A stretch of DNA of 64,000 nucleotides from Phaeobacter sp. 22II1-1F12B (GTDB taxonomy: Bacteria > Pseudomonadota > Alphaproteobacteria > Rhodobacterales > Rhodobacteraceae): positions 362,015-426,014 of the forward strand of contig NZ_AQQP01000004.1 of assembly GCF_002210165.1 (NCBI RefSeq), read 5' to 3'. Of this stretch, positions 60,544-63,026 are shown piece by piece; the stretch's first letter is position 1, and every line of letters begins with the position of its first letter. A program made the translations under genes and the position numbers. Under the pieces are notes generated by a model that was not told the DNA's origin, did no database searches, and was given only the letters and a program-made list of their open reading frames with translations.

Positions 60544-62982
60544 ATGAATGATGACGTCGATGACCCCAACATGAAGCGCCCCGAGGATCTCGGGCAGGTA
60601 TCCGAACCGCTGCGTCGCGCGATTGGCGAGCGTTATCTGACTTATGCGCTCTCGACGATCATGCACCGCGCGCTGCCGGATGCGCGCGACGGGCTCAAGC
60701 CGGTGCATCGGCGAATCCTCTACGCGATGCGCGAATTGCGCCTGACCAGCACCGGGGGCTTCCGTAAGTCCGCCAAGATCAGCGGCGACGTGATGGGTAA
60801 CTATCACCCGCATGGCGATAGCGCGATCTATGACGCGATGGCGCGACTGGCGCAGGATTTCAACGTCCGTTATCCGCTGGTCGATGGGCAGGGTAACTTT
60901 GGCAATATCGACGGCGACAACCCGGCCGCCAGCCGATACACCGAAGCGCGTCTTACCGTGGTGGCCGAGGCGCTGCTTGACGGGCTGAACGAGGATGCCG
61001 TCGACTTCCGCGAGAATTACGATGGCACGCTGACCGAACCGGTCGTGCTTCCGGCCGAGTTTCCGCATCTGCTGGCAAACGGATCGTCGGGCATCGCTGT
61101 CGGCATGGCGACGAATATTCCGCCGCATAACATCGCCGAACTCTGCGATGCCTGTCTGCACCTGATCCGTACGCCAAATGCACAGGACGATACGCTGCTC
61201 AACTACGTGCCGGGGCCGGACTTTCCGACCGGCGGCGTGATCGTCGAGCCGCCCGAGAGCATCGCACAGGCCTATCGCACCGGGCGCGGATCATTCCGGC
61301 TGCGCTGTTCTTACGAGATCGAAGACCTCGGGCGCGGCCAGTGGCAGATCGTGGTCACCGAGATTCCCTATCAGGTTCAGAAATCCAAGCTTATCGAACG
61401 TATCGCGGACCTGATCCAGACCAAGAAGATCCCGATTCTGGCCGATATTCGCGATGAATCGGCGGATGACATCCGCATGGTGCTTGAACCCAAGTCCAAG
61501 AACGTCGATCCCGAGGTTCTGATGGGCATGCTCTACCGCAATTCGGAACTCGAAGTGCGGTTCTCGCTGAACATGAACGTGCTGATCGACGGTGTGACGC
61601 CCAAGGTCTGCTCGATGAAAGAGGTGCTGCGGGCCTTCCTCGATCACCGCCAAGAGGTGTTGTTGCGCCGGTCGCGTCACCGGATGCGCAAGATCGACCA
61701 CCGGCTCGAGGTACTTTCGGGCCTGATCACCGCTTTCCTCAACCTCGACCGCGTGATCGACATCATCCGCTATGATGACGATCCAAAGGCAGCGCTGATG
61801 TACGAGGACTGGAGCCGTCCGCACCAGCAGACGATTGCCCGGGCGACCTCGGAACGCGATTACGTTTCGCCCCTGCTTGGGGTCGATGTTTCCTCGCTGA
61901 CGCTGGTGCAGGATCTGGACGCCTCGGCGCCGGGCATACTGGCCGAAACCGCGCCCGAAGGCATTCCGCGCAGCTATGCGGGACGTGAGAACGGGCTGTC
62001 CGACGTTCAGGCCGAAGCCATCCTTAACATGCGCCTGCGCAGCCTGCGGCGTCTCGAGGAAGAGGCGCTGGTACGCGAACGCGATGCGCTGATGGCGGAA
62101 CGCGCGGACCTTGAGGATCTGCTTGGCAGTGAAGAGCTGCAATGGGCCAAGATCGCGGATCAGATGCGCGCCACCAAGAAACAGTTTGGCAAGGACTATC
62201 CCGGCGGCGCGCGCCGCACCCGTCTGGAAGAGGCTGGCGAGGTCGAGGAAGTGCCACTCGAGGCGATGATCGACCGTGAACCGATCACGGTGGTCTGCTC
62301 GCAGATGGGCTGGATCCGCGCGATGACCGGCCATATCGACCTCGAACGCGAGTTGAAGTTCAAGGACGGTGACGGTCCGCGCTTCATCTTCCACGCGGAA
62401 ACCACGGATCGCCTGCTGGTATTTGGCTCGAACGGGCGGTTCTACACGCTCAGCGCCTCGAACCTGCCCGGTGGGCGGGGGATGGGGGAACCGCTGCGCC
62501 TGATGGTCGACCTGCCCAACGAATCCGAGATCGTCGATCTGTTCATCCACGTGCCGGACCGCCGGTTGCTGGTGGCGTCTTCGGCTGGCGATGGGTTCGT
62601 GGTGCCGGAATCCGAGGTGGTGGCCCAGACCCGGTCGGGCAAGCAGGTGCTGAACGTCAAGGGCGACGTCAAGGCCAAGGTCTGCACGCCGCTGACCGGC
62701 AATGCGATCGCCGTGGTCGGCGAGAACCGCAAGGTGCTTGTCTTCATGGCAGAGGAACTGCCCGAGATGGGCCGCGGCAAGGGCGTGCGGCTGCAAAAGT
62801 ACAAGGACGGCGGTCTCAGCGATGCGACGAGCTTCCTGCTCGAAGCGGGCCTCAGCTGGCTCGACCCGGCGGGTCGTACCCGCACCCAGACCGACCTGTC
62901 GGAATGGATGGGCAAGCGCGCCGGGACCGGCCGCATGGCGCCGCGCGGATTCCCCCGTGACAACCGGTTTACCGGGGGGTGA
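60544..62982 (+). CDS. parC: DNA topoisomerase IV subunit A
   Basis: The 812-residue protein has the catalytic Tyr132 (AASRYTEARL), the winged helix and tower, and a C-terminal beta-propeller domain (about 575-770). It decatenates daughter chromosomes with ParE. The quinolone-region residues are Ser93 and Asp97 (HPHGDSAIYDAM). It is longer than E. coli ParC, chiefly by the propeller tail. A start nine codons downstream (60571) is possible. Its stop runs into the G6-TGACA element. Confidence 0.95.
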   Translation: MNDDVDDPNMKRPEDLGQVSEPLRRAIGERYLTYALSTIMHRALPDARDGLKPVHRRILYAMRELRLTSTGGFRKSAKISGDVMGNYHPHGDSAIYDAMARLAQDFNVRYPLVDGQGNFGNIDGDNPAASRYTEARLTVVAEALLDGLNEDAVDFRENYDGTLTEPVVLPAEFPHLLANGSSGIAVGMATNIPPHNIAELCDACLHLIRTPNAQDDTLLNYVPGPDFPTGGVIVEPPESIAQAYRTGRGSFRLRCSYEIEDLGRGQWQIVVTEIPYQVQKSKLIERIADLIQTKKIPILADIRDESADDIRMVLEPKSKNVDPEVLMGMLYRNSELEVRFSLNMNVLIDGVTPKVCSMKEVLRAFLDHRQEVLLRRSRHRMRKIDHRLEVLSGLITAFLNLDRVIDIIRYDDDPKAALMYEDWSRPHQQTIARATSERDYVSPLLGVDVSSLTLVQDLDASAPGILAETAPEGIPRSYAGRENGLSDVQAEAILNMRLRSLRRLEEEALVRERDALMAERADLEDLLGSEELQWAKIADQMRATKKQFGKDYPGGARRTRLEEAGEVEEVPLEAMIDREPITVVCSQMGWIRAMTGHIDLERELKFKDGDGPRFIFHAETTDRLLVFGSNGRFYTLSASNLPGGRGMGEPLRLMVDLPNESEIVDLFIHVPDRRLLVASSAGDGFVVPESEVVAQTRSGKQVLNVKGDVKAKVCTPLTGNAIAVVGENRKVLVFMAEELPEMGRGKGVRLQKYKDGGLSDATSFLLEAGLSWLDPAGRTRTQTDLSEWMGKRAGTGRMAPRGFPRDNRFTGG

Positions 62983-63026
62983 CATCTGTACAGCACCTGT
63001 ACACCATCTGTGCACCAGCCGTGCAC
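62974..63026. repeat. G6-TGACA plus four 11-bp GTRCAN units
   Basis: Six Gs (62974-62979), then TGACA (62980-62984, the parC stop being TGA at 62980-62982), then GTACAG at 62988, GTACAC at 62999, GTGCAC at 63010 and GTGCAC at 63021. Each unit is exactly 11 bp from the next. The leading part and its 9-bp spacing to the first unit are identical to the element at 2655-2696. Confidence 0.75.

Follow-up and report, generated by a model that had tools for sequence, protein, structure and literature searches.

Dispersed polar 11-bp tandem repeats that follow the inferred replication direction in Phaeobacter and related Rhodobacteraceae: possible sites of a chromosome-organising protein

We describe an element of about 50 bp, built from tandem 11-bp units and dispersed along the Phaeobacter chromosome. 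Its anatomy, its number, its preference for intergenic and convergent positions, its polarity with respect to GC skew and its regular spacing were established by computation. Between two Phaeobacter species the core is more identical than the near flanks, and neighbourhoods are shared across genera despite changed spelling. Taking the strand of positive GC skew as the presumed leading strand, we propose tentatively, with a little less than even confidence, that these are dispersed polar tandem-repeat sites on the leading strand, probably bound by a putative protein that would organise or anchor the chromosome arms. Such a factor fits the data better than an OmpR-type regulator does. Searches of the open literature, including the accessible parts of PMC7901474 and PMC6699656 and with most subscription journals outside the scope, brought up no description of the 11-bp element, and an exact-string literature search returned only works unrelated by title.

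The window, the whole 64-kb stretch of Phaeobacter DNA analysed here, carries two copies. Copy B (62974..63026, + strand) opens with GGGGGGTGACA and has a G6 lead, GTGACA at 62979-62984 and four 11-bp units at 62988, 62999, 63010 and 63021. Copy A (2655..2695, + strand) has G6 at 2655-2660, GTGACA at 2660-2665 and three 11-bp units at 2669, 2680 and 2691; together with its 3' tail CCGCCGCAGCGCAGCAT (2696..2712, + strand) it covers 2655-2712. The parC gene for topoisomerase IV subunit A (60544..62982, + strand; TIGR01062, 813.4 bits against a cut-off of 628.9), whose product has its closest named match in Albibacillus kandeliae (85%), ends within copy B, its TGA stop being 62980-62982. A sequence-only reading of this DNA had reported the letters and coordinates of both copies and the parC stop inside TGACA, all of which proved exact on checking; the G6-TGACA lead and the 9-bp distance from GTGACA to the first unit were indeed alike in copies A and B. 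The 213-aa open reading frame 3' of copy B (63114..63755, + strand) had no NCBIfam or Pfam match, and we take the start of its product to be lipoprotein-like, with a putative lipobox. Copy A is flanked on the left by a chorismate mutase gene (2330..2629, - strand, opposite to the element; NF006691, 148 bits, cut-off 120) and on the right by a GNAT acetyltransferase gene (2762..3358, - strand; PF13302, 86.4 bits). Three adjoining GNAT acetyltransferase-like open reading frames lie on the minus strand at 2762-4424, and the PF13302 result is for the first of them. An Rfam search of the parC copy (62800-63200) gave a single chance match far under threshold, and no family fitted.

We searched the window with the triple-unit pattern, allowing up to two mismatches. 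The results showed seven matches against a mean of 0.29 and a maximum of 2 in 100 shuffles; six were overlapping or reverse readings of copies A and B, and the seventh, at 61157, was an unrelated match with one mismatch. A weight matrix of 52 columns, built on 57 sites outside the window, scored copies A and B at 57.2 and 55.1 bits. With shifted registers of both set aside, the next best score was -3.2, which falls in the range of the maxima of ten simulated null windows (-7.7 to -2.5). The matrix and shuffle results together indicate that the window holds two element copies, both on the + strand. The GC skew of this strand was +0.054 overall, and none of the 16 bins of 4 kb was clearly negative. 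In the same-genus genome G001, an orthologue of copy B was found at C33:1530-1567, and the gap orthologous to that of copy A was occupied as well, as it was, with a different spelling, in genome G217. The 80 parC loci retained from named relatives contained no triple-unit match at up to one mismatch, so copy B was not seen outside the genus.

The exact pattern of three 11-bp units, GTRCA-N6-GTRCA-N6-GTRCA, occurred 76 times in the 5.53-Mb Phaeobacter genome (37 on the + and 39 on the - strand), and the reversed control did not occur at all. After overlaps were joined and one reverse reading (L009, +) was dropped, the matches merged into 59 distinct places, two of them in the window, at a density of about one per 94 kb. 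This genome-wide count had been set beforehand as a test, and the two window copies are thus not the only ones. Alignment of the 59 sites showed a block of about 50 bp that often begins with an A-tract, followed by a lead and then by three or four YGTRCAC-N5 units, often CTGTACACCCC. The leads vary among GGGGGGTGAYA, GGTGAYA, GATGCACA, GGGGCACC and GGGCACC. The GTRCAN unit with a G6-TGACA lead, as first read from the window, is present, but its common form is YGTRCAC-N5 and its lead is one among several. Information content is near zero beyond the block edges. The units are direct repeats of fixed polarity, spaced 11 bp, about one helical turn, and in the genus Phaeobacter they are C-rich on the G-rich strand. 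About 12 of the 59 Phaeobacter sites, judged by eye, have the tail CCGCCGCRRYGCRGC after their last unit. A tail like that of copy A is also present in several G217 sites and in two of the three copies on Leisingera plasmids. On the other strand, the tail at 2696-2712 and the similar tails in Phaeobacter and G217 sites read CTGC-N3-GCGG, an imperfect palindrome that, we presume, resembles the PhaR site (CTGC-N3/4-GCAG).

We also examined inverted arms at the sites. The arm score of the Phaeobacter sites was 5.76, compared with 5.85 for shuffled pairing, and in three other genomes the arms were likewise not above shuffles. A hairpin or terminator around the element was rejected, the arms being no better than shuffled pairing. 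In genome G203, four contigs (C7, C14, C30 and C63) start 2-6 bases from an element copy, which suggests that near-identical copies break assemblies.

The genes around the sites were called with a simple codon-based gene caller. Fifty of the 59 Phaeobacter sites were intergenic, of which 17 lay in convergent, 27 in tandem and 6 in divergent gaps; nine were called inside genes, some of which may be errors of the simple caller. The reference, a small one, was the window's 37 gaps of at least 40 bp, with 4 convergent, 22 tandem and 11 divergent. The convergent excess (binomial p = 1e-5) and the divergent deficit (p = 0.005) argue against promoter operators, and the doubt raised earlier about a simple promoter role is borne out by these proportions (17/50 and 6/50 at the sites, 4/37 and 11/37 in the window). 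The direction of genes was uncorrelated with that of the element (29 of 59 Phaeobacter loci gene-positive). As regards partition genes, the window copies adjoin parC, chorismate mutase and GNAT, and the genes at ten other loci seemed by eye to be metabolic or of unknown function.

These observations bear on an improbable alternative, in which an OmpR/PhoB-type transcription factor such as ChvI, CenR or one of their relatives uses the element as its operator. In the accessible part of PMC9275681, direct repeats with a spacing of about one turn are given as typical of that family, and copy A, as read from its letters, holds GCC-N8-GCC, the S. meliloti ChvI motif as quoted in the part of PMC9731502 available to us; copy B does not. 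The same portions of these sources give TTGC-N3-GCAA for ChvI in Caulobacter (PMC9731502) and TGA-N8-TGA for CenR (PMC9275681), and neither is among the conserved letters of the element when the aligned sites are compared. On this comparison the motifs in these sources are unlike the element's conserved letters. The preference for convergent and avoidance of divergent gaps also speak against such an operator, as does an orientation that correlates with replication direction and not with gene direction. The suggestion of an OmpR-family regulator, ChvI included, found no support here.

We then compared the orientation of the element with local GC skew. The spelling of the units served to assign orientation, with the CACC side used in Phaeobacter, Nioella, G217 and G019. 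Skew was positive along the element at 52 of 59 Phaeobacter sites when only the flanks were counted (49 of 59 with the element included); a test for strand or replichore bias had been proposed in the sequence-only reading. It was also positive at 36 of 40 Nioella loci (among the matches listed, 80 of 105), at 10 of 10 G217 sites and at 15 of 18 places in G019, these being the ones with a fetched locus among 22. For G249 the reading was reversed; because TGCA is palindromic, orientation there was set by reversing the pattern, which gave 9 of 9 places among ten matches listed of 36, and the opposite choice gives 0 of 9 among those matches, just as uniform but reversed. The repeats with a 32-bp period in G006 and G048, described below, ran with positive skew at 10 of 11 and 14 of 17 places; the twelfth G006 locus, left out because it lies on a short contig, was positive too. 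Over the seven genomes together, 146 of the 164 sites that were scored run with positive GC skew, the Nioella and G249 sites being those among the matches listed. At loci whose genes run the opposite way, skew was still positive in 48 of 59 (four genomes). Because neighbours are not independent of each other, p values from sign tests come out too favourable.

G217 gives the clearest picture, with a 4.595-Mb contig that has dnaA at position 1 and a skew flip near 2.5 Mb; nine of its ten sites point from origin to terminus. A site shared the strand of its neighbour in 32 of 43 cases in Phaeobacter, where the null was 21.2, and in 29 of 43 in G001, where it was 21.4. Among the Nioella matches listed the figure was 14 of 29 against a null of 14.1, no better than chance. 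This speaks against simple replichore runs in Nioella, though local skew agrees. In Phaeobacter, four of six sites at C33:216-411 kb (L039-L044) oppose local GC skew. The hydantoinase-ABC transporter cluster at L044 is flipped relative to the element when compared with Nioella, G249 and G217; our guess is that a recent inversion, after which the element was re-set, would account for it.

Such an orientation brings in the foremost rival, a polar fork barrier akin to Ter, which we regard as unlikely. Here the predicted complex would let forks travelling from origin to terminus pass, stop opposing ones and guard whole arms. The geometry agrees with that of Ter sites, which are sparse, intergenic, polar and permissive toward ter in both arms, the direction that the element would have to leave open. 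However, no Tus homologue was found (PF05472, 0 matches in the Phaeobacter genome, with a positive E. coli control), and in G217 the sites are not concentrated near ter: no good-scoring site lay at 1.9-2.7 Mb around the skew flip, and one site lies about 7.5 kb from dnaA, provided that the contig is circular. A 0.4-Mb arm block of G217 was also without a good-scoring site. The matrix scan of 1.6 Mb of this genome returned 2 known sites and one 9-bit match that we judged spurious.

The intervals between sites were compared with uniform placement, single-site contigs being left out. The coefficient of variation was 0.56 in Phaeobacter (null 0.79, p 0.002; 56 sites, including one with a single mismatch, on 13 contigs), 0.64 in G001 (null 0.84, p 0.01; 51 sites on 8 contigs) and 0.47 in Nioella (null 0.77, p 0.0006; 37 sites on 8 contigs, among the matches listed). 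Among the listed Nioella matches none of 29 intervals was under 15 kb, with 7.9 expected. The results showed that the sites are spaced more evenly than chance in Phaeobacter, G001 and Nioella.

The numbers per chromosome also invite comparison with nucleoid-occlusion sites of the Noc or SlmA type, whose absence near ter would time division, a reading that we consider very improbable. The count is in a like range (about 70 Noc and 24-52 SlmA sites in the accessible part of PMC4726725). The same part of that source describes Noc and SlmA sites as palindromic and under-represented near ter, whereas the element consists of polar direct repeats. Moreover, the G217 gap around ter, 1.22 Mb, is no larger than the largest gap expected for ten random points (1.34 Mb), and among the matches listed for G249 two sites 140 kb apart flank the place where site orientations turn toward each other, presumably ter. 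A Noc-like palindrome, TTTYGTACRAAA, was rejected as the relatives' equivalent of the element. It was present in 22 of 61 genomes, the reversed control being similar in many, at 1-4 places per positive genome except G042 (6) and G006 (11); so few places and so similar a control indicate that it is not a dense site.

Conservation of the element was assessed in 20 Phaeobacter/G001 pairs. Identity was 97% in the unit block, 93% in the lead and 91% in the tail region, compared with 85-89% in the stretches directly beyond lead and tail (86-89% over the next 32-35 bp) and 89-94% in the farther flanks; the pairs were picked using the pattern, so its 15 motif letters are biased. In the spacers, which lie outside the pattern, per-position identity in these pairs was 95-100% for the second and 85-95% for the first.

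We searched the family with a triple unit that has Y before the second and third units. Matches were found in 64 of 394 family genomes, and 330 had no exact match. Among 50 genomes reached via named loci, 10 matched, the richest being Nioella nitratireducens SSW136 (105) and Yoonia ponticola (47), counts in which some sites are included on both strands because their cores are palindromic. G217 has only about ten sites. Copy number is uneven across genomes, indicating that the system is not universal in its exact 11-bp form. Spellings are specific to lineages, for example TGTACACCCCC, GTGCACCACCC and GTGCATCGGAT. Outside the family, 11 of 237 genomes of the class matched, with one or two places apiece or a local array, and none in dispersed form. 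In one of the genomes of another family, G574 (an alphaproteobacterial genome of 0.8 Mb), a perfect tandem array of the 11-bp GTGCATAACCT was observed at C4:51050-51164 and C28:8-100, local and not dispersed.

The positions of the element are partly shared among genera. Flanking genes were common to Phaeobacter sites and G217 sites at 5 of 10 G217 loci, at 9 of 40 loci in Nioella and 3 of 9 in G249 (both among the matches listed), and at 2 of 17 in G048 and 2 of 12 in G006. Of 654 gene-by-genome tests against three other genera, 37 had a gene flanking a Phaeobacter site beside a site there too; with control genes, all taken from one 48-kb stretch in mid-window, this was so in 1 of 159. In the chorismate-mutase gap shared with G217, the neighbours and the orientation of the element are kept and the spelling has changed. 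The locus most commonly shared among genera is a hydantoinase-ABC transporter cluster (labels assigned by eye). A regulator gene adjoining a widely shared site was considered and rejected, no DNA-binding gene having been seen at this cluster. The copies of a genome have that genome's spelling, and some positions are common to several genera, which suggests a concerted change of spelling. Judged from sequence, this seems the outcome expected of a common binding protein; conversion among dispersed 50-bp blocks is a less likely cause of the shared spelling.

Five Leisingera plasmid records matched, at one place each. In the three that were opened (L268, L269 and L270, near 8001-8050) the element lay in the same carnitine gene cluster, between the genes for a 3-keto-5-aminohexanoate cleavage protein and carnitine 3-dehydrogenase. 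A plasmid origin was rejected, the three opened of these five records being one gene cluster; a phage origin was rejected for want of a phage match. The plasmid copies belong to the evidence on a further improbable account, a mobile or selfish repeat of small size, entering the single-stranded lagging-strand template and sitting in intergenic or 3'-end locations like REP elements, which are intergenic, lie at 3' ends and contain stem-loop inverted repeats. Entry into that template would yield an orientation biased by replication; genera differ in copy number, with anything from 0 to about 60 sites, and 3'-end and convergent placement is frequent. Set against this are the lack of inverted arms above chance, the narrow range of replicons just described, the even spacing, neighbourhoods kept while spelling shifts in concert, and the near-zero information content outside the block.

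Sister genomes carry a second repeat. At the gap 3' of gatB, 26 of 30 loci were readable, including Phaeobacter, which has the 11-bp element there. G006 and G048 (2 of the 26) have CCGTTTTGTAC repeats about 32 bp apart, L295 and L296 have palindromes with a GTAC core, and no such repeat was noticed at the other readable loci. CCGTTTTGTAC is dispersed, with 13 exact matches in G006 and 17 in G048 and none in seven other genomes searched; its reversed control gave 3 matches in G004 and none elsewhere. The repeat (L321-L350), often TTGACCGTTTTGTAC, occurs by eye as same-direction pairs or triples with a spacing of about 31-32 bp, in many cases directly after gene stops, and is mostly biased to the leading strand. 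G006 and G048 are without the 11-bp element. In G012, G022 and G042 we observed pairs of the TTTCGTACGAAA palindrome, with a GTAC core, 29-32 bp apart and few per genome.

Returning to the chromosome-organising reading, a putative protein would bind the element, probably cooperatively and on one face of the helix, since the units lie 11 bp, about one turn, apart. The genome-wide common spelling within each genome may mirror co-evolution with this protein, and its job would be nucleoid organisation or segregation, not gene control. A tight polar complex would obstruct the replisome if reversed, which would explain why the sites point the way the fork travels. The organising role put forward in the sequence-only reading thus holds in outline, through replichore polarity, even spacing and common spelling, while the protein and its binding are presumed from the letters. 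A wider picture is possible, though doubtful: in Rhodobacteraceae these would be previously undescribed one-way markers along the arms, fork gates or arm anchors, with lineage dialects rewritten by a co-evolving protein, and the CCGTTTTGTAC repeat of 32-bp period would do the same job in sister genera, at some of the same places. Few bacteria are known to have polar chromosome markers, and those known have a central part in replication termination, segregation or division. How the chromosome is organised in Rhodobacteraceae, a major group of marine bacteria, has been little described. A family of sites that is sparse, fork-oriented, even in spacing and quick to evolve offers a direct way in, as the element can be used as bait for the protein, and the dialects permit a natural specificity-swap test.

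Among known systems, Ter has sites that are sparse, intergenic, polar, oriented by replichore and clustered toward ter. The element is likewise sparse, polar and replichore-oriented, but consists of three or four tandem 11-bp units, whereas Ter is a single site of about 23 bp recognised by Tus. ParR-type centromere iterons are arrays of 11-bp direct repeats beside partition genes; the element shares the 11-bp direct repeat but is dispersed, with three or four units at each place, and does not form one array. KOPS, like Architecture Imparting Sequences (AIMS), are abundant, and all of these, the element included, are strand-polar chromosomal sequences read along the ori-ter axis. AIMS are 8 bp in the part of the source available to us, and in contrast to such short, abundant octamers the element is about 50 bp long with 59 copies in 5.5 Mb. 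PHO-box-like repeats of the OmpR family also consist of direct repeats about one helical turn apart, but the element is neither promoter-linked nor gene-oriented. With Noc and SlmA sites, which are palindromic and scarcer near ter in the accessible part of PMC4726725, the element has in common tens of dispersed sites per chromosome.
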